Assembly (NCBI RefSeq): GCF_014925385.1
Contig: NZ_JACSDK010000020.1
Coordinates: forward strand, 62,001 to 126,000
Direction: 5' to 3'
Length of the DNA: 64,000 nucleotides
DNA from: Pelagibius marinus
Lineage (GTDB): Bacteria > Pseudomonadota > Alphaproteobacteria > Kiloniellales > Kiloniellaceae
This document shows, piece by piece, positions 22,673 through 38,504 of the stretch. Each line of letters begins with the position of its first letter. The stretch's first letter is position 1. The position numbers and the translations under genes were made by a program. The notes below the pieces were generated by a model. The model made no database searches. It was given only the letters and a program-made list of their open reading frames with translations, and was not told the DNA's origin.

Positions 22673-23473
22673 CTATGAGAACTTCGCCGTGATGCCGCCG
22701 TCGACCAGCAGCCCGGTACCGGTGATGTACTTGGCCTCGTCGGAGGCGAGGAACAGCGCGGCATGGGCGACGTCCCAGGCGTCGCCCATCTTCCCGGTCG
22801 GGCACTGGGCGTCGCGCTTGCGGATCATCTCGTCGATGTCGCCCTGGGCGTAGGCCTCCTTCAAGGGCTCGACGATCATTGGCGTGTTCATGAGCCCCGG
22901 CAGGACGGCGTTGGCGCGGATGCCCTGCCTGGCGTACTGCAGCGCCACCGAGCGGGTGAAGGGCAGCACCGCGCCCTTGCTGGTCGAGTAGGAGATATAG
23001 GGCACGCCGGTGTCGCGGATGCCGGCGATGGAGGCGATGTTGACGATGGCGCCACCGCCCTGGCGCTGCATCACCGGCAGCACGTGCTTGCAGGTGAGGA
23101 ACATGGACTTGAGGTTCACGTCGATGACCCGGTCCCAGCTTTCCTCGCTGGCCTCCACCGGGCCGCCGACTTCCAGGATGCCGACGTTGTTGTCCAGCAC
23201 GTCGATGCGGCCGAAGACCTCCAGGCAGCGCGCCACCATGGCCTCGACATCGCCCGCCTCGGCAACGTCGGCGCGGCAGGCTTCCGCCGTTGCGCCCTCG
23301 CCGCGGATGATGCCGACGGTTTCCTCCGCCGCGGCCAGGTTGATGTCGACGCAGAAGACGTTGGCGCCTTCCCGCGCGAAGAGCACCGCCGTCGCCTTGC
23401 CGTTGCCCCAGCCCGGCCCGGAGGACCCCGCGCCCACCACCATCGCCACCTTGCCCTCGAGACGTCCCGCCAT
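22673..23473 (-). CDS. SDR family oxidoreductase
   Basis: A 266-residue short-chain dehydrogenase. The catalytic triad is present: Ser in NIASIAG, Tyr and Lys in YISYSTSKGA. The cofactor loop is unusual, VVGAGSSGPGWGNGKA in place of TGxxxGIG, and the NNAG motif reads DNNVGI. Asp in FCVDINL after beta-strand 2 favours NAD over NADP. The loop variant is known in a subgroup of proteobacterial SDRs and is not by itself disabling. The substrate is unknown. The gene is convergent with terC. Confidence 0.9.
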   Translation of the reverse strand: MAGRLEGKVAMVVGAGSSGPGWGNGKATAVLFAREGANVFCVDINLAAAEETVGIIRGEGATAEACRADVAEAGDVEAMVARCLEVFGRIDVLDNNVGILEVGGPVEASEESWDRVIDVNLKSMFLTCKHVLPVMQRQGGGAIVNIASIAGIRDTGVPYISYSTSKGAVLPFTRSVALQYARQGIRANAVLPGLMNTPMIVEPLKEAYAQGDIDEMIRKRDAQCPTGKMGDAWDVAHAALFLASDEAKYITGTGLLVDGGITAKFS

Positions 23474-23945
23474 GACTTCCCATCTCCCTGCTTTGCCGCT
23501 TAGCCTTCTTCATAGAAGAAGACGGCGTCACTTAGAAGCCGGGATCGGGAAGGGCGATATCGTGGGAATCAGCCCGCGGGGCCGGAAAGCTGCCCCGCGG
23601 ACCGCACCCAGGGGTGGAAAAGGCTGCGGTCCGCGGGACGAATGACGGACTGGGTGGAGGGGTGGGAGAGCCCTATCAGCCCGTCATCTTTGGATCACAT
23701 CCAGGGGATCAGCCCTGAATGCGGTAGTAGGTGCAGCGGTCGCTGGCGACTACCAAGGCAAGGAACGCGTCCTTGCGATTCGTCGTTGCCTCCTGAAGAC
23801 AGGATCGAAAACGGCAGATGCCGCCTGTACCCCTGTCTGTCGCGCCGGGCCCAGGATCGGTTCAAACAAACTTCGCCTCGCGGCGCGCCGGCCGGCCTGC
23901 CCCCGGCGGCTCCCCTCCAGGCTCCCGCTTCAGATTCTGCCCAAG
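23474..23945. other. gene-poor region with an orphan promoter-like element
   Basis: About 470 bases between the SDR start and the globin stop. It contains one copy of the two-part element described for the 26-37 kb array (23839-23865). Downstream of it on the minus strand there is an AGGAGG near 23782-23787 but no ATG, GTG or TTG at a usable distance; the frame after it would end in DRCTYYRIQG. I do not call a gene. A small transcript or decayed gene is possible. Confidence 0.5.
23839..23865 (-). promoter_or_regulatory. sixth copy of the tTGAACC-N16-CGACNNA element
   Basis: On the minus strand TTTGAACC (end at 23859-23865) is followed after exactly 16 bases by CGACAGA. It matches the element found before each of the five paralogous secreted-protein genes. 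It would drive transcription toward the SDR gene, whose start is about 365 bases away. No convincing ORF begins close to it. Confidence 0.4.
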
Positions 23946-26003: not shown

Positions 26004-26369
26004 CTACGGCTTGGGCCTGGCGGCGAAGAGGATCACGTGGGCGGTGACCAGGCAGGCTAGCAGGCTGCCGCCCATGATCGGCAGGTAGATGATGGCGTGC
26101 CAGAGGTCGTTGAAGTCGACGAGGAACAGCAGGGCGACGACCACGACGGCGGCCAGCAGGACCTGCAGCCAGACCGCCCCGTAGCTCGGCTTCAGGGCCG
26201 AGACCAGCCAGCCGTAGGTGGCCAGCGTCGTCACCAGCAACACGGCGATGGCGCCGAAAGTCGCGTAAAAGCCGGAGTGGTAGGGCGAGCCGGGGATCAG
26301 CCCGAACAGAGCACCGGCCAGCAGGTGCAGGGGCACGATCACGTAGCCGGCGTAGCTGGGCAGGGTCAT
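26004..26369 (-). CDS. four-helix membrane protein downstream of the paralogue array
   Basis: A 121-residue integral membrane protein with four hydrophobic helices (VIVPLHLLAGALFGLI, FGAIAVLLVTTLATYGWLV, LQVLLAAVVVVALLFLV, IIYLPIMGGSLLACLVTAHV). I do not recognise the family. It starts 46 bases after the stop of array gene 1, on the same strand, with GGAGAAGG before its ATG and no terminator between, so it is probably transcribed with gene 1. It is the only membrane protein linked to the array and may be a partner of the secreted proteins. Confidence 0.7.
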   Translation of the reverse strand: MTLPSYAGYVIVPLHLLAGALFGLIPGSPYHSGFYATFGAIAVLLVTTLATYGWLVSALKPSYGAVWLQVLLAAVVVVALLFLVDFNDLWHAIIYLPIMGGSLLACLVTAHVILFAARPKP

Positions 26370-26415: not shown

Positions 26416-27936
26416 TCACTCGGGTGCGCGGGGCTGGAGACGCCGCGGTGCGGCCGGCTGCGGTTGCGGCGCCTGCGGCGGCAGCCCCCGGGTCCTGGGC
26501 GGGGTGGCCCCCGCCCCCGCCCGGCGCCGCTCGACGGTCAGGCCGCCCGGCGCCGGCTGCACAGAGGGGTTCACCGTCGGCGTGCTGCATCCGAGAACGA
26601 AGGGATGCTGCGGCACCGAGGCGATGATCCTGCCGTGCTGGTCGGTCACCTTCAGGCCAAACTGGCGCGACTGCGTCAAGGGCATGTTGGCCTGGGCCGG
26701 CGCGGGAACGGAGTTCCACCGCAACGGCGCATCCGCCCCCTGCAGCACCTTCTGGCCCGGCGTGATGCTGAAGTCGTACCGCTGCGAGAAGAAGGCGGTG
26801 CCGAAGAACATCATCTCGCCGCTGGCGTTGCCGAGCCCTTCCAGCACGGCGATCAGCTTCACCGTCTCGGGACAGATGCGGCCGTGCGCCATCACCTTGC
26901 CCTGCGGTACCGCCTTCAGCGTGACCTCGAGCGGCCGGTCCGTGGCCAGGCTCTGCGGGCCGCCTTCCGTGCACTCCATGGTGTATTCGGCCCACTCCGA
27001 GCGGAAGTTGTGGCTGACGCCGACCATGCGCACGAAACCGGTTTCGGCCCATTCGGTGTTGGCGATGTTGTACCAGTGGCTGAAGGTCGCGGTCTTCGAC
27101 TCGCCGGTATTCACCGTCCACAGCTGGCTCTGCTTGCCCTGCTGGTTCTTGTAGCGGAACGAGACCTCCGCGTTCTTCTGATCGGTGGTGATCCAGCCGT
27201 CCAGGCGGATCTTGCAGACCCCGGTGATGCCGTACTGCTCGTAGATCGACAGCCCCTTGTTCACGACCTTCGACGGCGGCGCGGCCAGGGTGGTGCTGGC
27301 CTGCGGGATCGCCGCGCCGGGCCACTTCTTGCAGACCACTTCGATCTTCTTCACTTCGTCCCAGGGAGTGGCTCCGACAAAAATGCTGTTGCTGCCGGGA
27401 CCGGTGTTGTTGACGTCGAGGTTGCTCACCACCCCCAGCTCGAGCTTCCGGTCCTGGCCAAAGATCGCGGTATCGGGGAGACCCTGGGCGCGCAAGTGGT
27501 CCGCCAGCGCGTTGCACTGCGTCCGCACGAAAGCCCCCCAGGCGTATTCCGGCAGCTCCAGCCGCTCGGTGCGGTTGACGCTGTTCGGCCGGTCGTACCA
27601 GGGATAGGACTTGGACTTGCCGAAGCTCTGGAACCACATCCGGCCGCCGTCCTCTCTGGCAAGGCCGAGAAAGGCATTCCAGGACTTCACCCCGCCGACG
27701 AGACCGGTATCGACTTCCACATGCACATCGGCCACCAGGTTGGCGAGTGGATTGGTGCGGTGATAACTGCTGCCGTTGCTCGCGACCTCGATGCGCGGCG
27801 GGCTCAGATAGGTCACCTCCGAGCCAAAGGAGTCGGCCCGCGCCGGGCCGGCCGGCAGCGCGCCGGACAGGCCGGCGACAAGCACGGCGGGGATAGGGGA
27901 AAGCAGGAAACGGGTCGTTTGCGGCATCGCTCTCAT
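26416..27936 (-). CDS. secreted modular protein, array gene 1 (modules A-B-C, Pro/Arg tail)
   Basis: About 506 residues, no known family. A signal peptide ends near ALPAGPARA. Module A (to about residue 200) has ASNGSSYHR, the helix CNALADHLRAQG and ends in EVVCKK. Module B includes GVCKIRLDGWITT, KTATFSHW and ends WAEYTMEC. Module C begins with RICPETVKL and ends at FVLGC. A 60-residue Pro/Arg/Gln-rich tail replaces the E module of genes 3-5. Paired cysteines at module ends suggest disulfides in the periplasm. The ATG at 27936 has AGGGA upstream; ATGs at 27963 and 27927 are alternatives. Preceded by the array promoter element at 27987-28013. Confidence 0.85.
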   Translation of the reverse strand: MRAMPQTTRFLLSPIPAVLVAGLSGALPAGPARADSFGSEVTYLSPPRIEVASNGSSYHRTNPLANLVADVHVEVDTGLVGGVKSWNAFLGLAREDGGRMWFQSFGKSKSYPWYDRPNSVNRTERLELPEYAWGAFVRTQCNALADHLRAQGLPDTAIFGQDRKLELGVVSNLDVNNTGPGSNSIFVGATPWDEVKKIEVVCKKWPGAAIPQASTTLAAPPSKVVNKGLSIYEQYGITGVCKIRLDGWITTDQKNAEVSFRYKNQQGKQSQLWTVNTGESKTATFSHWYNIANTEWAETGFVRMVGVSHNFRSEWAEYTMECTEGGPQSLATDRPLEVTLKAVPQGKVMAHGRICPETVKLIAVLEGLGNASGEMMFFGTAFFSQRYDFSITPGQKVLQGADAPLRWNSVPAPAQANMPLTQSRQFGLKVTDQHGRIIASVPQHPFVLGCSTPTVNPSVQPAPGGLTVERRRAGAGATPPRTRGLPPQAPQPQPAAPRRLQPRAPE

Positions 27937-27986
27937 GGTCCCTGGTTCGGAGACGACGGGCATCCTAGGGGTATTCTATCCTATGG

Positions 27987-28013
27987 GTCGTGCCGCTGCC
28001 CCAAATGGTTCAA
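27987..28013 (-). promoter_or_regulatory. array promoter element of gene 1
   Basis: On the minus strand TTGAACC, 16 bases, then CGACCCA. The downstream half is about 51 bases before the chosen start of gene 1. It shares both halves and the spacing with the elements of genes 2 to 5. The shape, a GAAC-containing -35 and a short -10 at about 16 bases, is that of an ECF sigma factor promoter. Confidence 0.6.
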
Positions 28014-28035
28014 CCGGGCCGACAGCGCCCTGGCC

Positions 28036-28072
28036 AAAAAAATGTGGGGGAGCGGCGCTGCCACTCCCCCAC
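28036..28072 (-). terminator. rho-independent terminator after the E-module remnant
   Basis: GTGGGGGAG (28044-28052) pairs perfectly with CTCCCCCAC (28064-28072); on the minus strand the hairpin is followed by ATTTTTTT (28036-28043). It lies just after the stop of the E-module remnant (28109-28111), where a terminator for the original longer gene 2 would be expected. Confidence 0.8.
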
Positions 28073-28108
28073 GATCGGCCGGGCGCGGCGTTGCCGCCCT
28101 CCCGCTTC

Positions 28109-28318
28109 CTATTTCAGCGCCCCCGGAATGATGATCATTTGGGTGCTCGGCGGCTGCTGCGGCTGCGCTTGCGGCTGCTGGCTGCCGGTCGTCTTCGCCC
28201 CTCCAACTTGGAATTTGAGTTTCGCGCAGAGGGGTTCCGGTTGTTCATATGTCTGCGGGCGGCAGACACAAAGGAGCCGGTAACGGCTGCCGGTGAGGGC
28301 TGCCAGCGGGTGCTTGGA
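28109..28318 (-). pseudogene. orphan 3' remnant of an array gene (E module and tail)
   Basis: On the minus strand an open frame ending at the TAG 28109-28111 encodes a clear relative of the end of gene 4: LAALTGSRYRLLCVC, then CAKLKFQVGGAKTTG, a Gln/Pro linker, and QMIIIPGALK at the end. There is no start codon or ribosome-binding site, and the first half of the E module is missing. It sits directly downstream of gene 2, which lacks an E module, so it is most simply the severed end of gene 2 after an internal deletion or rearrangement. Confidence 0.75.
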
Positions 28319-28322
28319 AGCA

Positions 28323-28359
28323 GGCGGGCGGCCGCAATCACCGTCTGTGGCCGCCCGCC
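28323..28359. terminator. GC-rich hairpin after gene 2
   Basis: GGCGGGCGGCC (28323-28333) and GGCCGCCCGCC (28349-28359) form a perfect 11-bp stem ten bases after the gene 2 stop. No T run follows. Nearly the same hairpin is found after gene 5 (34902-34937) and after the pirin gene (37433-37469), so it is a recurring cassette. Confidence 0.5.
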
Positions 28360-28368
28360 CCGATTCCG

Positions 28369-29970
28369 CTAGTTGCGCCGCAGCCGCCGCAGGCGCTGCG
28401 GCCTGGTCGATTCCGGGGCTTCAGGCGTCATCAGCTGCGGCAGCGCCCGCAGCCGCGGGACCGCCGTCGCGCCGGACTGCTGCGCATCACGGGTGCCGGT
28501 CGTCATCCCACCGGGGCGGGCCTGTACGGCCGGCAGCGTCGCGGCTCCCGAATGCTGCGGGCCCAGCGACTCCCCTTTCAGCCCGCCGATGCCCGACTGC
28601 ATCCGCTGGTTCACCGCCGGCAGCTTGCATTGGATGAAATGCGGCTGCTTGGGCAGCATGGCGATAACAGCTCCGTCCTCATTCGTCGCGTTGAAGCCGA
28701 ACTCGCGCACCTGGCCGAACAGCGCATTGGGAACCGGCGGCGCCGGAACATCGGACCAGTCCAGTTCGGCCTCGGCGCCGATCAAGGCCTTTTCACCATG
28801 GCCGACGCTGTAGTCGCGTAAGGGCGAGACGTAGCCCGGACCGAAGAACAGGGCCTGGCCCGTGGCATCGCCCTGCCCCCAGACCACGCCGACCAACTTC
28901 ACCGTCTCGGGGCAGATGCGACCCTGCACCATGACCTCGCCGTGCGGTACAACGGACATGGTCAGCTTCGGCGGAAGGTTGGCGGCGATACCGCCGGGGC
29001 CGCCTTCTACGCAGTCCAGGTCGTAGTCGACCCAATCGCTCTGGAAGCCGTCTCCGACGATGCGCACCTGGCCCTGGGGATGGTTCGGCACGTCCTCCCA
29101 GCGACTGAAAGTCGCCGTCTTCGAGTCACCGGTGTTGACCGTCTTGACCGGGCTCTTCTTTCCTTCGTCGTTCTCAAACTGGATGTCGACATCCGCGTTC
29201 TTCAGGTCGGTCGTCACCCAGCCGTCGAGGCGGATCTTGCAGGCGCCGTTCACGGTCGCCTTCTCCACGATGGAGAGACCGAGATTGACCACCTCGGGCT
29301 GCTGTACCGTTAAGGCACCGGCCGTCTGGGGAACGGTGGGTGACCACTTCTGGCAGACCACCTCCACCTCTTCAAGAAATGGCGGCAGTAATTGCTGAAG
29401 CTCATGACCAAGCTGAAAAAGCCCTTCAGCTTCATTGGGGCCGGACGCCTCGACCTCCAGCCTTGCTTCGAGATCGTAGCTGATGGTTTGGTTCTGCCCG
29501 AAAATCTGTGCATCGGTCTGTCCATCGGCGCGGAATTCGTCCGCCAGCCGGTTGCAGCTGTCGATCACCGCAAGCTGCCAGGCGGACTGCGGCACAGCGA
29601 GCTGCACAGTACGGTCGACGGACTTAATGTGTTCGGACCAGGGATAGCTCTTGTGGTGCGCGAAGTTGGAAAATTCCAGGACGGCGCCGTTCTCGCGCCG
29701 CATGCTAAGCCAAGTCTTCCATTCCTTGATCTCGCCCGAAAGTTCGGCATCGGCCTCAACACGGACGTCGGCGATGAGACTGCTGGGTGCCGGCACCTGG
29801 GTGTATTCGGAGCCGTTGGAAAGCACGACGATCTGCTTGGTGACGAGGTTCGTGATCGTAGCTTTTTTCCAGTCAGCCTGGGCGGCGCCGGGCAGCAGCA
29901 CTGCGGCGGCCAGCGCAGCGGTCGCCAGCGACGGGCGCAAAGACGGAAATCGACGGTTCTGTGGCAACAT
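28369..29970 (-). CDS. secreted modular protein, array gene 2 (modules A-B-C, truncated)
   Basis: A 533-residue exported protein of the same unnamed family. The signal peptide ends at LLPGAAQA. Module A contains LSNGSEYTQVPA, CNRLADEFRADG and ends EVVCQK. Module B contains GACKIRLDGWVTT, KTATFSRW and ends DYDLDC. Module C begins RICPETVKLVGVV and ends HFIQC. The last 75 residues are a low-complexity tail ending in an Arg-rich string (RLRRLRRN). It is closest to gene 1. The ATG at 29970 is fixed by AGGAG eight bases upstream. An E-module remnant lies just past its stop, so this gene has probably lost its natural C-terminus. Confidence 0.88.
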   Translation of the reverse strand: MLPQNRRFPSLRPSLATAALAAAVLLPGAAQADWKKATITNLVTKQIVVLSNGSEYTQVPAPSSLIADVRVEADAELSGEIKEWKTWLSMRRENGAVLEFSNFAHHKSYPWSEHIKSVDRTVQLAVPQSAWQLAVIDSCNRLADEFRADGQTDAQIFGQNQTISYDLEARLEVEASGPNEAEGLFQLGHELQQLLPPFLEEVEVVCQKWSPTVPQTAGALTVQQPEVVNLGLSIVEKATVNGACKIRLDGWVTTDLKNADVDIQFENDEGKKSPVKTVNTGDSKTATFSRWEDVPNHPQGQVRIVGDGFQSDWVDYDLDCVEGGPGGIAANLPPKLTMSVVPHGEVMVQGRICPETVKLVGVVWGQGDATGQALFFGPGYVSPLRDYSVGHGEKALIGAEAELDWSDVPAPPVPNALFGQVREFGFNATNEDGAVIAMLPKQPHFIQCKLPAVNQRMQSGIGGLKGESLGPQHSGAATLPAVQARPGGMTTGTRDAQQSGATAVPRLRALPQLMTPEAPESTRPQRLRRLRRN

Positions 29971-30025
29971 GGTGATTCTCCTGGTTCGATGTTTCAGGGG
30001 GGTCTCATCCACTCATGCTCCGTTT

Positions 30026-30052
30026 GTCGCCGGCTCCAAACCTGAGGTTCAC
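30026..30052 (-). promoter_or_regulatory. array promoter element of gene 2
   Basis: On the minus strand GTGAACC, 16 bases, then CGACAAA, about 56 bases before the gene 2 start. Only the first base of the upstream half differs from the TTGAACC of the other copies. Confidence 0.6.
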
Positions 30053-30292
30053 TCCGGTGCCCCGGTTATCTCTACAAAAGTGTGGTGGCCGAGCGCGGCA
30101 CTCCCCGATGTCCGCATACCGGTACCTCCTATACTGGTTCAATACTGGGCCCGTAACGTCGGCGGATACGCCGGCCAGCTGGAGCCGGCCGGCAACAGCG
30201 GCGCGCGGAAATCGGCACGCAAGGAAGGAAAAGCGGCTACGGGGACCTGCGCCGCACCACAAGGCTCGACAGTCCTCTCTCCGCTGCCGCAG

Positions 30293-30334
30293 AAAAAGTG
30301 GGAGGGGCGGCCGCCTGGCGACCACCCCCTTTTT
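30293..30334. terminator. bidirectional terminator after gene 3
   Basis: An A run (30293-30297), then GTGGGAGGGGCGG, a short loop, and a mostly complementary CC-rich arm (30321-30329) with a T run to 30334. On the minus strand this terminates gene 3 about 40 to 80 bases after its stop. Confidence 0.7.
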
Positions 30335-30374
30335 GCAGTCTCGGCCTGCGGTCTCACCGCCCGCCGCCGCACCC

Positions 30375-32540
30375 CTAGTTCATCGCACCGGGCACGACGA
30401 TCACCGCCGTCGCCGGCTTGGACGGAGCCTTCTCCTGCTGCCTGGCCGCGACCAGCGGAATGCGGAAGTCGGAGGTCTCGCAGGCCGCCGGCCCCTGCCC
30501 CAGCGGGCAGACCCGAAGCCGCCAAGCGCGGGCGCCGGTCAGGGCGGCCAGGGGGAAGCCGGCGTTCTTACCCTTCATCTGCTTGGGCAGCTGCGCCGAG
30601 TTGACCTGCGTGGCCTTGCCGCCGGCCTTGCGGAAGAAGGTCAGCTTGTAGGTCTGCATCGGCTTGCCGCCCGACAGGCGGATCTCGCCGTCGCGGATCC
30701 GGCCCTTGGGCGCCAGGATGGCCAGGTCCGGGCGGATGGCCAGCTGGCCCACAGCCGCCGGGGCATCCTGCTGCGCGGCCAGCGGGTCCTTCTGTTCGGG
30801 TGCGAGTTCACCCTGGCCGCCGGCAACGGCCCGGTTTACCACGATCTTCTGACAGACAAATTTCTCGGCCTGCTCGACCGTCTTCACCAAATGGCCGTGC
30901 TGATTAAAGAACTTCAGGGTGAAGAGCATCGTCTGCTTCTTCTGGCCCGCCGCATTCCAGACGAGGCTATGCTCGCCGTCGTAGTTGTGACCCCAGTTGG
31001 CCTCCAGCTCGACATCGTGCTCGGCCACCTGCGAGGCGCCGGCATAGAGGATGGCCTTGCCCGTCAGGGGCTGGTCGTCGCTCGTGACTTGGCCGTGCAG
31101 ACGCGCCTTCTCCGGGCAGACCCAGCCGGGCAGCTTCTTCTGGCCTTGGGTCGTGATCGACAGGGCCACCGACTTGGGCAGGATGTCGTTGCTCGCCAGC
31201 TCGTTGATGGCGTTGCCGCCGGCGACCTGAGGCTTTCTGCACAGGAAGCTCGTGCGCTCCTCGATCTGGTCAACGGTATCGCCGGCGAGGTTGAGGACGA
31301 CCATGCGGTAGAGAACGCTCTGCTTGACGGCATTGTTGCCTTCCCAGGACAGCGAGTGTTCACCTTGCACAACGATGTGGTTACCGTCCTCAGCCTGGAA
31401 CTGCTCCAAGACCTTGGGCTTGCCGTCGACCGAAATCGCCACGACGCCCTTTACCTTGCCTCGCCCTTTCATCACACCCGCGAACTTCACCGTGGTGGGG
31501 CAAATGCGGTTGTTCTTCACAACGCCTCCGGGCATTGCGTAGGCTTCCAGGGCCACGGCCTTGGGCGGCAGCACCGTTGCTATATCCTGCAGCGGCTCAC
31601 TGCAATCCGCCTGAAACTCGGCCCAGTTCGACATGAGGGCATGGCTTGTGCCGATCATCCGGACCTTGCCGGACTGCTGACTGCCCTTGGCCAAGGGAAA
31701 CGCATGCAGGAAGTTCACAAAGCCGCTGCCGTCCGTTGTGACCGTCTTGATATCGCTCTGCTCACCCTTGAGGCTGTGATAACGGAACTTCACCTGGGTG
31801 TTGGGATTCTGCGTCACGATCGTACCCGAAAGCTGCAGCTCGCAGGCGCCGGTCAAGTTGTTGGTTTCTGCCGTGTGAGCAACGAGCACGGCATCCTTGA
31901 TCGCAGTCGTCACAGGATCCAGGCTGGCGTCGCGCTTGCAGGTGATGCCGATTGTGTAGGGGGCGTTCACCAGCTGTGGCGACGGCTCTATGCTGCCGAG
32001 GCCTGAAAGATCGGCTTCGACCTGGCCCCCGAGCCCGATGGCAAGAGTGCGGTCCTTATCGAATATCTCGCTGTTCTTCTTACCCTCGCCGCGCAGCTTG
32101 TCGGCGTGATTGTTGCACGCCGCAACCATGAAGTCGGCATAGTGCTGGCGCGGAATCATGAAATCGAAGGTTTCAGTGACCGACTTCGGCCCTGGCGCCT
32201 CGTAGCTTCTTGATATTCCGCTATCCTTGAAATGGTCCCAAGACACTGACAGTGGACCGATGATGTATCCCAGCCTCGGGAAAGCCTCGAAGCTCTTGAC
32301 CCTGCCGCTGATCCCGCCGTCGAGCTCGATCTTGATTGTACCGGTGATATGCTGGCTGGCATTGGTGACCTGGGTGTATTGGCTGCCGTTGCTCTCGACG
32401 GTAATCACCGGAGCATTGCTCGACAGGAGTTGGGCCCGGGCGATATCGGCGGAGGCGGGCCCCGACATCAGTGAGGCCGCCAAAACACCCGCAGCAAAAA
32501 TGCCCCGTCTGACGGCGGCGCTGCTACAAGAACTGGCCAT
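30375..32540 (-). CDS. secreted modular protein, array gene 3 (modules A-B-C-D-E, mosaic)
   Basis: A 721-residue exported protein with all five modules. A signal peptide ends near SGPASA. Module A: ESNGSQYTQVTNASQ, CNNHADKLRGEGKKNSEIF, ends ITCKRD. Module B ends FQADC. Module C: RICPTTVKFAGVMKGRG, GEHSLSWEG, ends FLCRKP. Module D: LPGWVCPEKARLHGQV, ELEANWGHNYD, FNQHGHLVKTVE, ends FVCQK. Module E: LAILAPKGRIRDGEIRLSGG then two Cys in RVCPLGQGPAACE, and the terminal VIVVPGAMN. Modules A-B resemble gene 4, while D-E resemble gene 5, so it is a mosaic. The ATG at 32540 has AGGAAG upstream; the longer frame begins with a TTG. Confidence 0.88.
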   Translation of the reverse strand: MASSCSSAAVRRGIFAAGVLAASLMSGPASADIARAQLLSSNAPVITVESNGSQYTQVTNASQHITGTIKIELDGGISGRVKSFEAFPRLGYIIGPLSVSWDHFKDSGISRSYEAPGPKSVTETFDFMIPRQHYADFMVAACNNHADKLRGEGKKNSEIFDKDRTLAIGLGGQVEADLSGLGSIEPSPQLVNAPYTIGITCKRDASLDPVTTAIKDAVLVAHTAETNNLTGACELQLSGTIVTQNPNTQVKFRYHSLKGEQSDIKTVTTDGSGFVNFLHAFPLAKGSQQSGKVRMIGTSHALMSNWAEFQADCSEPLQDIATVLPPKAVALEAYAMPGGVVKNNRICPTTVKFAGVMKGRGKVKGVVAISVDGKPKVLEQFQAEDGNHIVVQGEHSLSWEGNNAVKQSVLYRMVVLNLAGDTVDQIEERTSFLCRKPQVAGGNAINELASNDILPKSVALSITTQGQKKLPGWVCPEKARLHGQVTSDDQPLTGKAILYAGASQVAEHDVELEANWGHNYDGEHSLVWNAAGQKKQTMLFTLKFFNQHGHLVKTVEQAEKFVCQKIVVNRAVAGGQGELAPEQKDPLAAQQDAPAAVGQLAIRPDLAILAPKGRIRDGEIRLSGGKPMQTYKLTFFRKAGGKATQVNSAQLPKQMKGKNAGFPLAALTGARAWRLRVCPLGQGPAACETSDFRIPLVAARQQEKAPSKPATAVIVVPGAMN

Positions 32541-32605
32541 GGTTCGCTTCCTATTGATCAATCACTTGGGGGTGGATGGCGACTGCGGGAGGCATTCAAC
32601 TGTTA

Positions 32606-32631
32606 GTCGTTCCGAGGGAAAAGCGGTTCAA
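32606..32631 (-). promoter_or_regulatory. array promoter element of gene 3
   Basis: On the minus strand TTTGAACC, 15 bases, then CGACTAA, about 66 bases before the gene 3 start. The spacer is one base shorter than in the other five copies, a variation tolerated by many sigma factors. Confidence 0.6.
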
Positions 32632-32812
32632 AGGGGTATCTGGTTCTTCTGACTCTCGCCCGATATGAGGACCCGATCAGCTTCCTGGCGGACGAGAACC
32701 AAGCAAGGAAGAGCGGCGGGAAGAGCGGCCGCCTTCGCCGCCGGCTCTCCCCCGCTGAAGCGGGAGGCGCCGCCGCGGCTGGCCCCTTCGTGCCTGCTAA
32801 CGACCAGGGGTT

Positions 32813-34672
32813 TCAGTTTGGGTTGTCCACACCCGGGATGATGAACACTTTGGTGCTCGGCGGCTGCTGCGGCTTCGTCTGCGGCTGCGGCTGCGGCTGC
32901 TGGGTGCCGGTCGTCTTCGCCCCTCCGATTTCAAACTTGGACTTCGCGCAGAAGCGGTTCGGTTGTCCGGCGGGCTCCTTGCGGCAGACGTAAAGGAGCC
33001 AGCGACGGCTGCCGGCGAGGGCCGCCAGCGGGAAGCTCGCCTGCGAGCCCGTCATCCGCCTGGGAAGCTGGGGCGACTTCTCTTCCTGGTATTGGTTCGG
33101 GGCCACGCCGCGCATGAACGTCAGCACGTAGGTATCCCCCGGCTTGGCGCCCGAGAGGCGGATCTGGCCTCGGCGGGTCCGGCCCTTGGGTGCCAGGATG
33201 GCCAGGTTCGGGTGGATCGCCAAGTCGCCCACAGCCACCTGGGCGTTCTGCTGCGCGGCCTGCGGGCTCTGGCCCCACTGCTGGTTGCCGGTCGTCAAAC
33301 CGCCGGGACCACCCTGGACGGCGCCGGTGACTTGCGGCTTCCTGCACTCGAAGTTCACCGACTTCTCCATGGTCTCCAGGATCTTGGCGCCCCCGGCATC
33401 GACGATATCCATGCGGTAGTCGACGCTCTGTTTTCCGGTCTGGTTGCCCTCCCAGGACAGCGCGTGCTCGCCCTGGACGACGATGTCCTTGCCGTCTTTG
33501 GCCTGGAACTGCTCCTGCACCTTGAGCTTGCCGTCGGCGCGGATGATCACGAAGCCGGAGGCTTCGCCACGGCCCTTGAGCACACCCCAGACCTTCGCCT
33601 TGGCCGGGCAGTTGCGTCCGTCGTGCACGACGTTGTCGGCGGTGGCATAGGCCTCAACGGACACGGCCTTGGGCGGCAGAACCGTCTTGATGTCGTCGAC
33701 CTGCTCGCTGCAGTCGGACTCGAAGGTCGCCCAGTTGGAAAAGAAGGGATGGCTTTGGCCGACCATGCGGATCTTGCCGCTCTTGTGCTTGGCGCTGATC
33801 GGGAACTTGTGCTTGAAGGTGGTGTTGGCTTCACCGGACGTGGTGACCGTCTTGAGGTCGCTGACGTTACCCTTGTCGTCGACATAGACGAACCTCACCT
33901 CGGTGTTCGGGTCCCTGGTGATGACCGAGCCGTTGAGCTCCAACTCGCAGGTGCCGCGGAGATCCTTCGGCCCCGCCTTGGCCTGCATGTAGGCCCCTTC
34001 GACCTGCGGCGCTGCGACCGGGTCGAGCGCGTCATCGCGCTTGCAGGTGACGCTGAGGGTGTAGAGCGGACCGATCGCGACCGGCGGCGGGTTGACCCGC
34101 TCCGGACCGGTCAACTCCGCATCGACGGTGCCCTCGACGGCAAAGGCGACGGTGCGGTTCTTGGAGAAGATCTCGCTGTTCTTCTTGCCCTGGCTGCGCA
34201 GCTTGTCGGCGTGGATGTTGCAGACCGCAACCACTAAGTCAGCGTATTCCTGACGCTTGATCTCGAAATTGAAGCTCTCGGTGACCGACTTCGGCCGCGG
34301 CACCGAGTAGCTCTTCGAGTAGCCGCTGTCCTTGAAGTGCTCCCAGGACTTGGCCAAGTTTGTACCCTTGAGCGGGCCGAGCATCGGCCAGGCCTCGAAG
34401 CTCTTGACCCGTCCCGTCACCTCAGCGTCGATCTTGACCTGGATCTCGCCGATGATGCTCTGGCTGGAATTGGTAACGTGGGTGTATTCGCTGCCGTTGT
34501 TCTCGACGATGATCGTCGGCACGTTGGTCGACACGACATCCGCCGACTCGGTATCGGCAAGCGCCGGCCAGGCCGTGCAAACCGCGCCCAGAGCGCCGGC
34601 GAAGACAGCAGCCTTAGCAAAATAAGAACGGTTTTGGCGGCAGCGCGCTGCGCTGAGAAGGTCACCAGACAT
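32813..34672 (-). CDS. secreted modular protein, array gene 4 (modules A-B-C-E)
   Basis: A 619-residue exported protein. A signal peptide ends near TAWPALA. Module A: ENNGSEYTHVTNSSQ, CNIHADKLRSQGKKNSEIF, ends VTCKRD. Module B: GTCELELNGSVIT, ends FESDC. Module C: RNCPAKAKVWGVLKGRG, GEHALSWEGN, ends FECRKP. Module D is absent. Module E: LAILAPKGRTRRGQIRLSG, FPLAALAGSRRWLLYVC and FCAKSKFEIGG. A Gln/Pro/Lys linker leads to VFIIPGVDNPN at the end. The ATG at 34672 has AGGAA eight bases upstream. It lies between the two D-containing paralogues, so D was lost here or gained in the flanking copies. Confidence 0.88.
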   Translation of the reverse strand: MSGDLLSAARCRQNRSYFAKAAVFAGALGAVCTAWPALADTESADVVSTNVPTIIVENNGSEYTHVTNSSQSIIGEIQVKIDAEVTGRVKSFEAWPMLGPLKGTNLAKSWEHFKDSGYSKSYSVPRPKSVTESFNFEIKRQEYADLVVAVCNIHADKLRSQGKKNSEIFSKNRTVAFAVEGTVDAELTGPERVNPPPVAIGPLYTLSVTCKRDDALDPVAAPQVEGAYMQAKAGPKDLRGTCELELNGSVITRDPNTEVRFVYVDDKGNVSDLKTVTTSGEANTTFKHKFPISAKHKSGKIRMVGQSHPFFSNWATFESDCSEQVDDIKTVLPPKAVSVEAYATADNVVHDGRNCPAKAKVWGVLKGRGEASGFVIIRADGKLKVQEQFQAKDGKDIVVQGEHALSWEGNQTGKQSVDYRMDIVDAGGAKILETMEKSVNFECRKPQVTGAVQGGPGGLTTGNQQWGQSPQAAQQNAQVAVGDLAIHPNLAILAPKGRTRRGQIRLSGAKPGDTYVLTFMRGVAPNQYQEEKSPQLPRRMTGSQASFPLAALAGSRRWLLYVCRKEPAGQPNRFCAKSKFEIGGAKTTGTQQPQPQPQTKPQQPPSTKVFIIPGVDNPN

Positions 34673-34735
34673 GGCACGGTTCCTGTTCTTGCAGAATGAA
34701 TGGACCCGGCCGCAAAGCCGGGGCGTCAGGCTTTA

Positions 34736-34762
34736 GTCGGGGAGCGCGCCACCGGGGTTCAA
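34736..34762 (-). promoter_or_regulatory. array promoter element of gene 4
   Basis: On the minus strand TTTTGAACC, 16 bases, then CGACTAA, about 64 bases before the gene 4 start. Confidence 0.6.
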
Positions 34763-34811
34763 AACGACAGGGTGAATTCCGCAAGGGAACTACGCCCAAT
34801 GGCTGCCAGAA

Positions 34812-34842
34812 TGAAGCCGTGAAACCGCACAAGCACGATGCA
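34812..34842. repeat. 31-bp dispersed repeat, copy C
   Basis: It matches copy A (24481) at 26 of 31 bases, with GAAACCGCACAAG fully conserved. It lies about 140 bases upstream of gene 4 and 50 bases upstream of its promoter element. The flanking CCGCA...TGCGG forms an inverted repeat. Confidence 0.6.
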
Positions 34843-34901
34843 GCTTTGCGGGGGAATAGGGGATCAGGAATTAACCAATTGATATATATGGGAGATGGGA
34901 G

Positions 34902-34937
34902 CGCGGCGGGCGGCCGCAGTTGCCGCCGCCCGCCGCG
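34902..34937. terminator. GC-rich hairpin after gene 5
   Basis: CGCGGCGGGCGGC (34902-34914) and GCCGCCCGCCGCG (34925-34937) form a perfect 13-bp stem seven bases after the gene 5 stop. There is no T run, so termination strength is uncertain. It is the same cassette as at 28323 and 37433. Confidence 0.5.
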
Positions 34938-34943
34938 GTACCC

Positions 34944-37172
34944 CTAGTTTGCGATGCCGGGGATGACGACCACCGCGGCCGCCGGGTTGGAGGGCGCCTT
35001 GTCCTGCTTGGCGCCGGCCAGCGGGATGCGGAAGTCGGAGGTCTTGCAGGCCGCCGGCCCCTGCCCCAGCGGGCAGACCCGAAGCTGCCAGGCGCGCCCG
35101 CCGGTCAGGGCGGCCAGCGGGAAGCTGGCGTTCATGCCCTTCATCTGCTTGGGCAGCTGGGCGGCGCTGACCTGGGTGGTCTTGCCGCCGGACTTGCGGA
35201 AGAAGGTCAGCTTGTAGGTCTGCGTCGGCTTGCCGCCGGACAGGCGGATCTCGCCTTTGCGCACCCGGCCCTTCGGCGCCATGATCGACAGCGGCAGGGC
35301 CTGCGGCTGGACCAGCATGCCGGTCGCGGTCTGCTGCGAGGCCTGGCCCGGCTGCGTGGTGCCGATCTCGCCGCCGCCGGCAGCGAGACCCGACGTCGAG
35401 ACCTTCTCGCAGGCGAAGTTCTCCGTCTTCTCCACGGTCTTCACCAGGTGGCCGTGCTGGTTGATGAACTTCAGGGTGAAGTTCATGGTCTGCTCGGTCT
35501 TCGCCGTGTTCCAGGAGAACTCGTGCTCGGCGTCGTAGTTGTGGCCCCAGTTGGCCTCCAGCTCGACGTCGTGCTCGGCGAGGAGGGAGCCGCTGGCGTA
35601 GAGCACGGCCGTGCCCGTCAAGGGCTGGTCGTCGCTCGTCACGTTGCCGTGCAGACGCACTCTCTCCGGGCAGATCCATCCGGGCAGCTTCTTCTGGCCC
35701 AGGGTGGACAGCGACAGGGTAACGGACTTCGGCAGGTTGTCGTTGCTGGCAATGCCGCCCGGCGCGTTGTCGAACTGGGCGTTTACCTCCGGCTCCTTGC
35801 ACTCGAAGTTAGCCGCGGCCTCGATGTGATCGACCAGATCGCCGACCGCGTTGGTGACGTTCATGCGGTAGGGCACGTTCTGCTGGCCGGTCTGATTGCC
35901 CTCCCAGGACAGCGTGTGCTCGCCCTGGATGACGATCTGCTGGCCGTCTTCGGCCTCGTACTGCTTCAGCACCTTCAGCTTGTTGTCGGCAAAGATCGCG
36001 ACGGCGCCGGAGGCGTCACCACGCCCCTGAAGGATACCCCAGATCTTCACCGTGGTCGGGCAGACGCGGCCGCGGTACAGGATCGTGTCGGCGGTGGCGA
36101 TGCCTTCCAGGTGCGTCGCCTTGGGCGGCAGAACAGCCGCAAGGTCCTGTGCCGACGAGCCGCAATCAACCTCGTAGTCCCGCCAGGGGGAGCTGAAATT
36201 CTCTCCGACGCCGATGATGCGGACCTGCCCGCTCTTCGTGCCGCCGGCAGGCAGAGAATAGTCGAAGGCGTACTGCCCGAAACCATTGCTGTCGGTGATA
36301 ACCGACTTCACGTCACTTTTCTGGCCGTCGTTGCTTTCGAAACGGAACTTGACGTGGTCTTCCGGCTCCACCGTTTCGAGGCCTACCTGCAGGTTCATCG
36401 AACAGGCACCACTCAGGCTGTCATGCCCCTTGACGATGAGATTGGCCGCCTTCACGTGCGGCACATTGCGCGTCGGCCCATTGTCGACGGTCGGCAGACG
36501 TGCCGGCCCGGGTTCGCGCTTACAGATCACCGTTACCTTGTGCATAAAACTCCAGCCCCCACCCCCAAGAGCTGCCGTACGATTCTGGCCGGGGCCGGTT
36601 ATGTCGTACTCCAAGGCAGGAAAGAATCCGATCTCCAGCGGACGATCCTGAGAGAAGATCTCCTGATTTGACATGCCACCCTTGCGCAGGTCGGCGGCCT
36701 GGTTTTCGCAGTAAGTCACCAGATGGCTGCCATAGGCGGGAGCGGGAATGCCGAGGGCCACGACTTCTTCAATCGATTTCGGACGGTCCCCCAATGGGAA
36801 AGCTTTCGAGAAGCCAAACCCAGGAAACGCGACCCAGTCCGATCCTTCAGCGCGGAACTTCAGCCACACTTTGTAGCTCTTGACTCTGCCTAAGGTCTCA
36901 GCATCCAGGCTCACAGTCGCGTCGGCCCCAATGAACTGCGTATGGCTTGCCGGCTGCGTATAGTGCTCGCCGTCGCTCTGGATCTCGATGGTCTTCGGCA
37001 ACAAGTTGCTCAGAGTAACGCCTGCTTGATCCGCCATGGCGGTTCCCGTAGCCAGACAGCCGGCAAGAGTCGTCGCGGCTGCGAAGCCGCGCCTGAAGGA
37101 CCGGCGAGCGAAAAGCCGCTCAAAGCCATGGTTCTGGCAGCCCGCAGGGCCGCAGACTTCTAAGTAAGACAT
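34944..37172 (-). CDS. secreted modular protein, array gene 5 (modules A-B-C-D-E)
   Basis: A 742-residue exported protein, the longest of the array, with a long signal region ending near GTAMA. Module A: IQSDGEHYTQPASHTQ, CENQAADLRKGGMSNQEIF, ends VICKRE. Module B: GACSMNLQVGLET, ends YEVDC. Module C: RVCPTTVKIWGILQGRG, GEHTLSWEGN, ends FECKEP. Module D: LPGWICPERVRLHGNV, ELEANWGHNYD, INQHGHLVKTVE, ends FACEK. Module E: IMAPKGRVRKGEIRLSGG, RVCPLGQGPAACK, and the terminal VVVIPGIAN. D and E are almost identical to those of gene 3. GAGGA eight bases before the ATG at 37172 fixes the start; the frame to 37187 begins with TTG. Confidence 0.88.
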   Translation of the reverse strand: MSYLEVCGPAGCQNHGFERLFARRSFRRGFAAATTLAGCLATGTAMADQAGVTLSNLLPKTIEIQSDGEHYTQPASHTQFIGADATVSLDAETLGRVKSYKVWLKFRAEGSDWVAFPGFGFSKAFPLGDRPKSIEEVVALGIPAPAYGSHLVTYCENQAADLRKGGMSNQEIFSQDRPLEIGFFPALEYDITGPGQNRTAALGGGGWSFMHKVTVICKREPGPARLPTVDNGPTRNVPHVKAANLIVKGHDSLSGACSMNLQVGLETVEPEDHVKFRFESNDGQKSDVKSVITDSNGFGQYAFDYSLPAGGTKSGQVRIIGVGENFSSPWRDYEVDCGSSAQDLAAVLPPKATHLEGIATADTILYRGRVCPTTVKIWGILQGRGDASGAVAIFADNKLKVLKQYEAEDGQQIVIQGEHTLSWEGNQTGQQNVPYRMNVTNAVGDLVDHIEAAANFECKEPEVNAQFDNAPGGIASNDNLPKSVTLSLSTLGQKKLPGWICPERVRLHGNVTSDDQPLTGTAVLYASGSLLAEHDVELEANWGHNYDAEHEFSWNTAKTEQTMNFTLKFINQHGHLVKTVEKTENFACEKVSTSGLAAGGGEIGTTQPGQASQQTATGMLVQPQALPLSIMAPKGRVRKGEIRLSGGKPTQTYKLTFFRKSGGKTTQVSAAQLPKQMKGMNASFPLAALTGGRAWQLRVCPLGQGPAACKTSDFRIPLAGAKQDKAPSNPAAAVVVIPGIAN

Positions 37173-37234
37173 TTTCGGTTTCCTCAAATAAACAGGATGG
37201 GGCCCAGCCGCCCGGCCTCGCCCTTCCCCCTTGG

Positions 37235-37261
37235 GTCGCCAGCTTGCGGAATAAGGTTCAA
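37235..37261 (-). promoter_or_regulatory. array promoter element of gene 5
   Basis: On the minus strand TTTTTGAACC, 16 bases, then CGACCCA, about 63 bases before the gene 5 start. It is the outermost element of the array. Confidence 0.6.
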
Positions 37262-37469: not shown

Positions 37470-37625
37470 AGCGGAGCGGCACGGAGGAAACGCGCGCCGC
37501 TCCACAAGTGCCACCGGCGTCGCGTTGCGGGCCGATGACGTCTTTATGTCGCGGCGCCCCAACCCCGGGTTCAATACCCAAGTGATTTTTCTTGTCGCTG
37601 TCCGGCGCGGCGCGCCGAGGCCTTC

Positions 37626-38504
37626 TCAGTCTTCCGGCAGGGGCATGACGTCGTCGTCGCCGGGCACCGGCGCGAAGCGCCCTTCCCGCCAGTCCGCCTT
37701 GGCCTGCTCGATCAGCGCCGGATCGGAGGCGACGAAGTTCCACCAGATATGGCGCTTGCCCTCCAGCGGGGCGCCGCCCAGCAGCATGAGCCGGCTGGCC
37801 GGCCCGGCGGTGAGCGCTACCGCCGCCCCTTCCTTCAGGACCGCCATGGTGGCGGGGCCAAAGTCGGCGCCGCCCAGGGTGACGCCGCCGCTGACCACGT
37901 AGACCGCGCGCTCGGCATGGTCGTCCGGCAGTTCCAGCCGCGCCCCGGCGTCCAGCTCGGCGTGCAGATAGAAGAGGTCGGAGAAGGCCGGCACCGGCGA
38001 GACCTCGCCGTAGGCGCGCCCGGCCAGCAGGCGCAGCCGGCTGCCGGCCCCTTCGATGAGCGGCAGGTCCTCCAGCGGGTGGTGGGAAAAGTCCGGCGCT
38101 CCCTGTTCCTCGGCCAACGGCAGGGCGACCCAGGACTGCATGCCGTGCAGCCGCGTCTCCCGCTCCCGCTCGATCTCGCCGCTGCGCTCCGAATGGACGA
38201 TGCCGCGCCCGGCGGTCATGAGGTTCACCGCGCCGGGGCGTATTTCCTGCATATTGCCCAGGCTGTCGCGATGCAGGATCTCGCCGTCGAAGAGGTAGGT
38301 GACGGTGGCCAGGCCGATGTGCGGATGGGGGCGCACGTCGATGCCCTCGCCCGGCGGCAATGCCGTGGGGCCGAACTCGTCGAGGAAGATGAAGGGCCCC
38401 ACCATGCGGCGCTTGGCGAAGGGCAGGATGCGCTTCACGCCGAAGCCGCCGAGATCGCGCGCGCGCGGTTCGATCAGAAGTTCGACAGGACTATTCTCGC
38501 TCAT
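37626..38504 (-). CDS. pirin family protein
   Basis: A 292-residue double beta-barrel (cupin) protein. Iron-binding histidines are visible in VRPHPHIGLATVTYLF and in GRGIVHSE, with a Glu in TRLHGMQSWVALP; this is the standard pirin set. Pirins act as quercetin dioxygenases or as redox-sensitive regulators of protein partners, and the exact activity cannot be told here. The length is normal. It precedes the array on the same strand but is separated by a hairpin and 450 bases, so co-transcription is unlikely. Confidence 0.92.
   Translation of the reverse strand: MSENSPVELLIEPRARDLGGFGVKRILPFAKRRMVGPFIFLDEFGPTALPPGEGIDVRPHPHIGLATVTYLFDGEILHRDSLGNMQEIRPGAVNLMTAGRGIVHSERSGEIERERETRLHGMQSWVALPLAEEQGAPDFSHHPLEDLPLIEGAGSRLRLLAGRAYGEVSPVPAFSDLFYLHAELDAGARLELPDDHAERAVYVVSGGVTLGGADFGPATMAVLKEGAAVALTAGPASRLMLLGGAPLEGKRHIWWNFVASDPALIEQAKADWREGRFAPVPGDDDVMPLPED

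Follow-up and report, generated by a model that had tools for sequence, protein, structure and literature searches.

We identified a family of exported, modular proteins in Pelagibius marinus that is encoded by a tandem array of five genes (g1 to g5) on the minus strand of a 64,000-nucleotide (nt) stretch of contig NZ_JACSDK010000020.1 (hereafter the window). Judged from promoter-like sites and gene neighbourhoods, the array very probably belongs to the output of a single regulon governed by an extracytoplasmic function (ECF) sigma factor. The reading we favour, and consider probable, is that the array arose through family-specific expansion of exported proteins built from several immunoglobulin (Ig)-like modules, produced as part of the output of this ECF sigma regulon, and that the proteins act as rods with a variable tip at the cell surface or in a matrix.

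The genes are g1 (26416..27963, 515 amino acids [aa]), g2 (28369..30012, 547 aa), g3 (30375..32561, 728 aa), g4 (32813..34672, 619 aa) and g5 (34944..37187, 747 aa). An earlier note on this DNA had proposed such a five-gene array with products of 506 to 742 residues; five consecutive open reading frames (ORFs) were indeed found and encode 515 to 747 aa, the values 506 and 742 being consistent with a later start codon in the first ORF and in the last. The proposed signal peptides were recognised in all five proteins as a basic, hydrophobic N-terminus with an AxA|D-type cleavage site, judged by eye and not by a signal-peptide program. Iterated module profiles gave the architecture signal peptide-A-B-C for g1 and g2, which end in a Pro/Arg-rich tail and an Arg-rich tail, respectively, signal peptide-A-B-C-E for g4 and signal peptide-A-B-C-C(D)-E for g3 and g5. 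Of the five kinds of module put forward earlier, C and D proved to be a single family (their profiles cross-match), which leaves four module families. The proteins are paralogues, as had been claimed, with 27-51% identity to the 747-aa g5 protein and the same modules detected in each by profile searches, and the A-module motifs NGSxYT, CNxxADxLRxxG, IF and a closing VxCK are visible in the alignment. A sixth A-family copy, with the architecture A-B-C-CARDB, is located elsewhere in the genome and brings the total to six A-family genes. The C-terminal tail V-[FIV]-[IV]-x-P-G closes g3, g4, g5 and many other E-type members and is a possible sorting tag.

Each module contains one pair of cysteines, the two columns showing at least 90% conservation, up to full invariance, in every module (alignments of 49 sequences for A, 36 for B, 48 for C/D and 34 for E). 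Structure models and Foldseek searches, which covered modules A and B to D, predicted Ig-like sandwiches for B to D. A separate model of module A was made because the whole-protein fold search was dominated by B to D; it is confident and consists of a sandwich plus a helix, with weak fold matches. Conserved cysteines and predicted folds (A to D) together support the earlier proposal of exported, probably disulfide-containing beta-sandwich repeats. Searches of g1 to g5 against Pfam, NCBIfam, PHROGs and PADLOC, of g5 against PDB sequences and of the module profiles against PDB returned sub-threshold noise and no credible match. The five proteins were thus assigned to no characterised family (with PDB sequences searched for g5 only), and modules A, B, C and E are without an entry in the libraries searched. 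The broader statement that the modules are shared with nothing recognised has to be toned down, since in relatives the known CARDB domain takes the place of E at the C-terminus. Comparison of the B and C profiles was no more than suggestive (E 0.0017, probability 15), and homology of E to C was not detected by profile comparison.

The earlier note had also given each gene its own promoter element. A defined promoter-like motif, TGAACC-N16-CGAC, precedes all five genes on the minus strand, and it appears to be tied to an ECF sigma cluster described below. The sites lie at 27987..28012 (g1), 30026..30051 (g2), 32606..32630 (g3, a variant with N15), 34736..34761 (g4) and 37235..37260 (g5), and begin 39, 49, 69, 73 or 89 nt ahead of the ORF start; a second, distal site of g5 lies at 37548..37573. 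All eight TGAACC-N15/16-CGAC sites of the window are on the minus strand. The motif was found within 350 nt upstream of A in 44 of 67 distinct A-domain genes (43 in the N16 form and one in the N15 form). In the same regions spacers of 8-14 and 17-23 gave no site, a spacer of 24 gave three, and the reversed pattern gave none. The sixth base after the C of CGAC is an A in 42 of the 43 N16 sites, though this was not imposed, and 14 of the 23 remaining genes carry an N16 site with one mismatch. The refined motif was written as TTGAACC-N16-CGACYNA. A further site in the window with the refined A (23839-23864, minus strand) lies 366 nt before an SDR gene (22673-23473), and no exported gene was noticed directly behind it.

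The loose motif (TGAACC-N16-CGAC) occurs 77 times in this genome. Apart from six sites in or next to the array, which were taken from the window, the 71 others were read, with surrounding genes called by a GC3 rule and not by a gene finder: 42 fall within putative coding ORFs, 23 directly precede an ORF and six are unclear. Because 42 of 71 fall in putative ORFs, the abundance of loose sites is probably explained by coding frames. Of the 23 intergenic-type sites, 18 have the refined A, versus five of the 42 inside coding ORFs. Genome-wide counts of the loose motif were rejected as a test, since 326 of the 385 genomes of a class-wide set match and some genomes without the cluster nearly reach the loose-site count of this genome.

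The cluster in P. marinus encodes a beta-barrel protein (698 aa), two Ig-like proteins, an ECF sigma factor (184 aa), an anti-sigma protein (221 aa) and a subtilase (567 aa). A scan of contigs added two A-family loci, one from a Kiloniellaceae metagenome-assembled genome (MAG; L032, a named genus member) and one from a Silicimonas MAG (L033) with a short A-B version. The Silicimonas locus shows the same cluster order with one Ig-like gene, followed by the A-B gene with its own site, and its ECF protein is 50% identical to that of P. marinus. In this locus an apparent iron-type ABC transporter follows the A-B gene (L033 11281-14320, by eye). The order barrel-Ig-ECF was found in 19 of 20 further stretches, the remaining one (L213) being a contig end with the Ig gene and part of the barrel gene. 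Anti-sigma and subtilase genes directly follow the ECF gene in 16 of these 19; both are elsewhere on the stretch in G010, the subtilase is elsewhere in G013, and neither was seen in G017. In L033, G373, G020 and G017 the cluster has an A-family gene no more than 3.4 kb away.

All 19 anti-sigma proteins have a strong hydrophobic segment and, likewise in 19 of 19, a GPxALGxY-like motif in the outer domain. This outer domain resembles the fervidolysin prodomain family below the cut-off (E 0.003 in P. marinus and 0.062 in Silicimonas). The subtilases match PF00082 with E-values of 9e-38 and 2e-33, and, in a check for the catalytic Asp, His and Ser motifs, patterns were seen in 20 of 20 (GTS), 15 of 20 (HGT) and 15 of 20 proteins (Asp, with the pattern as we wrote it). 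The predicted outer-membrane barrel ends in Tyr or Phe in 19 of 21 cases, and a search of the barrel profile against PDB found no relative.

Coupling of motif and cluster was analysed in 58 genomes (P. marinus and relatives) and in the class-wide set of 385 genomes, P. marinus included, with an Ig profile as marker of the cluster. The marker was found in 21 of the 58 genomes, comprising all 15 that carry the A family and six of the 43 others. The refined motif, which had been refined on A-family sites from genomes that are also in this set, so that the test is partly circular for those genes, was present in all 21 (2-21 sites each, 178 in total), and the 37 relatives without the marker have three sites together, one each in three genomes. 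Read backwards, it gave six sites in all 58 genomes, a control that does not correct for the coding-frame effect. The six marker genomes without the A family (G009, G014, G018, G019, G021 and G030) have 3-9 refined sites each, and in five of them one site is that inside the barrel gene. Such recurrent sites in the 3' end of the barrel gene were not counted as promoters, as they overlap the conserved peptide LNxxxGxGDT. The association also holds within one genus, in which G030 has the cluster and nine sites and its congeners G023 and G037 have no cluster and no sites. Across the class the marker was found in eight of 385 genomes, with 13, 4, 14, 4, 1, 3, 2 and 1 refined sites, and 53 of the 377 genomes without it have 1-3 sites, so that genome by genome the result is weaker. 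The A profile matched six of the 385, four strongly, among them P. marinus; the three other strong genomes carry the marker, and the two with weak, distant matches (G317 and G393) do not.

The products behind the sites are also consistent with a regulon of exported proteins. A signal peptide was found in 18 of the 23 ORFs behind intergenic sites versus 30 of 151 background ORFs, which are other ORFs from part of the same stretches (P 6.6e-8; P-values of the regulon and motif tests ignore shared ancestry). The home-made heuristic used for this count misses at least the sixth copy, which has a signal peptide by eye. The products include CARDB proteins (four above the cut-off and one below), an LCCL protein and, by eye, proteins with B-like modules (L088, L091, L116 and L125). 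One of the 23 ORFs resembles a gene for a release factor; this case is probably a coding coincidence. Several single loci were also noted behind regulon sites: an exported bacterial LCCL-domain protein (L119 2598-3443, E 6e-37), a tandem exported pair with an apparently very divergent A module and then B (L125 2598-4671), and, 129 nt downstream of its site, a protein of 1263 aa whose glycine-rich repeats are RTX-like (L143 428-4216).

The link between motif and ECF factor rests on co-occurrence and position, and within the cluster itself the second Ig gene is also preceded by a site. The same data could be read as an operator bound by another regulator, with the ECF cluster merely one of its co-regulated targets. 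We regard this as improbable, as an asymmetric motif of two short blocks at a fixed 16-nt distance is in keeping with a sigma promoter, and just one of the 15 sigma-region-2 genes in the genome, that of the cluster, has a loose-motif site within 3 kb (coordinates compared by eye). The motif and its coupling to the cluster are well supported computationally, and the ECF sigma factor of the cluster is our candidate reader of the motif. No description of this ECF regulon was found in limited literature searches.

The A family itself is confined, within the 58 genomes, to 15, all in the taxonomic family of P. marinus and including all eight of its genus. Homologues with the same architecture thus occur in related genomes, and the longest architectures in relatives are A-B-C-C-E-C-C-E (1114 and 1126 aa). 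The array locus is bordered upstream by a pirin-family gene (37626..38504, minus strand) and downstream by a gene for a 121-aa membrane-like protein (26004..26369, minus strand), both conserved as borders in genomes of the genus: G000, G001, G002, G004, G005, G006 and G007 have both and G003 has the pirin side. Between them the array consists of one copy (G005), two (G003 and G004), five (G000 and G007) or six (G002), and in G001 and G006 of four copies plus one A-only gene. A 5'-truncated, g4-like E module with C-terminal tail lies between g2 and g1 (28109..28312, minus strand; found by gap translation, ends counted by eye) and is an apparent footprint of array rearrangement. A second tandem array, of genes with an A module and B-like modules, is present in G006 (L049 10545-15303) and G001 (L050 2439-6794); five of its six genes have a C-terminal CARDB, and several upstream sites read CGAACC for TGAACC. 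In G010 a TAG stop interrupts one array gene (L038 3047-4795).

Comparison of genes at this locus indicates that the A-B front end has been exchanged as a cassette between sister species, a conclusion we consider well supported by the alignments. The g5 protein and the product of the G004 gene adjoining the pirin gene are 86, 76 and 88% identical in C, D and E, with A and B at 31 and 42%, the level of paralogues. For g1 and its true orthologue in G004, a sister genome, the values are 82% (A), 92% (B) and 85% (C). Within the array, g3 and g5 are 85% identical in E and just 32% in A. Among the 39 genes with both A and E inside the stretches compared, 16 pairs, not independent of one another, are at least 75% identical in E; A is below 45% in eight of them (six between genomes and two within one) and at least 65% in seven. 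Four-fold degenerate sites of A in the eight swapped pairs show 30-48% identity, close to the 37% average of unrelated pairs, which looks like replacement and not like fast protein change. The clearest case is that of G006 and G001, in which a block of 706 nt (400 nt upstream plus the gene start, reaching roughly residue 102 within the signal peptide) is 92.2% identical at the DNA level. It is followed by about 930 nt holding A and B without a match and then by 1,990 columns, to near the gene end, with 92.9% identity.

These comparisons bear on whether the array is an ordinary paralogous expansion by drift, in which tandem duplication and unequal crossing-over would generate tip diversity without a selected role. 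The E relic between g2 and g1 and the tandem order do point to unequal recombination. Such a history nevertheless appears unlikely as the full account, since the swap between G006 and G001, with flanks 92-93% identical and no match between them, requires a divergent allele as the replacement, which mere crossing-over of recent copies would not provide, and the near-baseline four-fold sites argue likewise. Since the tip changes and the promoter, signal peptide and stalk are retained, selection probably acts on tip variation. The dosage- or variant-dependent envelope function proposed in the earlier note may therefore be right with respect to variants, in view of the exchanged A-B cassettes; dosage found no support, nor did the stress coat and toxin-like competition named there as possible functions.

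Unrelated tip alleles at constant flanks between sister species are also what frequency-dependent selection would produce if the tips served as self/non-self labels or as phage-decoy receptors in inter-bacterial or phage-driven conflict, with the ECF system as trigger. The varying copy number would suit this explanation. Against it, the five proteins gave no match in PADLOC and none to toxin domains in the libraries searched (Pfam and NCBIfam), and no A-family member was found in the viral contigs or plasmids scanned, so that we rate it as quite unlikely. From architecture and exchange, recognition or adhesion at the surface or in a matrix is the most likely function of the array.

In the mechanism we propose, the ECF sigma factor would be held by the predicted one-pass membrane anti-sigma protein, whose outer domain is weakly subtilase-prodomain-like, and both are encoded beside the subtilase, the predicted outer-membrane beta-barrel and the Ig-like exported proteins. 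Gene order and this weak similarity suggest that subtilase and prodomain-like domain could gate the sigma factor. Once released, it would read TTGAACC-N16-CGACYNA promoters before the array genes and before genes for other exported CARDB or B-module proteins. After Sec export each module would form a single disulfide, and the products would serve as rods, in which a C/E stalk carries the A-B tip at the N-terminus, in recognition or adhesion at the cell surface or in a matrix; the tip would be swapped as a cassette between lineages, with promoter, signal peptide and stalk retained. A more specific version, in which a protease-gated ECF switch with a prodomain-like anti-sigma sensor commands a secretome of Ig and CARDB proteins whose lineage-replaced tips give each lineage its own surface-recognition repertoire, is put forward tentatively.

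Alternatively, damage sensed by the subtilase and its anti-sigma partner might induce the proteins as chaperones for envelope stress or as baits or inhibitors of proteases, and they would then stay in the periplasm. Inspection of the array proteins by eye revealed neither a membrane anchor nor a lipobox, the cluster includes a subtilase along with a sensor domain that weakly resembles a prodomain, and the best Foldseek matches of whole g5 include the multi-Ig chains of complement C3 and alpha-2-macroglobulin (TM ~0.1). We nevertheless consider a periplasmic role doubtful: tip exchange on a conserved stalk fits exposed recognition more than housekeeping chaperones, and the copy number ranges from 1 to 6 at a single locus within one genus. 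With these findings an anonymous array becomes a defined, testable regulon that has a promoter sequence, a set of exported targets, and candidates for both the sigma factor and the signalling protease, and this regulon spans several families of the class. The locus is also a clear natural example of a domain cassette being exchanged between sister species while the scaffold stays fixed, a signature sought in recognition systems.

As in known ECF sigma/anti-sigma systems, the cluster combines sigma regions 2 and 4, a membrane anti-sigma protein and a two-block motif with a 16-nt spacer; the best NCBIfam model for its ECF protein scored far below the cut-off. For ECF54, a subtilase in the neighbourhood has been reported, and its control is described there as working without an anti-sigma factor (PMC8999054). 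The cluster described here shares with ECF54, as portrayed there, the nearby subtilase and differs in that 18 of 21 clusters have a gene for an anti-sigma protein next to that for the ECF factor. Ig-like sandwich domains of the GH2 type are another near comparison, and the array proteins gave no glycosidase domain match in Pfam or NCBIfam. The comparison with the Vibrio cholerae biofilm scaffold RbmA concerns the fold alone. The family is also tied to a known domain, CARDB (PF07705). The five array proteins do not match it, three carrying E instead and two (g1 and g2) neither, but it scores above the Pfam cut-off at the C-terminus of five of the ten A-module relatives scanned, all from G001 and G006, and in the sixth copy of P. 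marinus, and stand-alone CARDB proteins of this genome sit behind the same TGAACC-N16-CGAC motif as the array.

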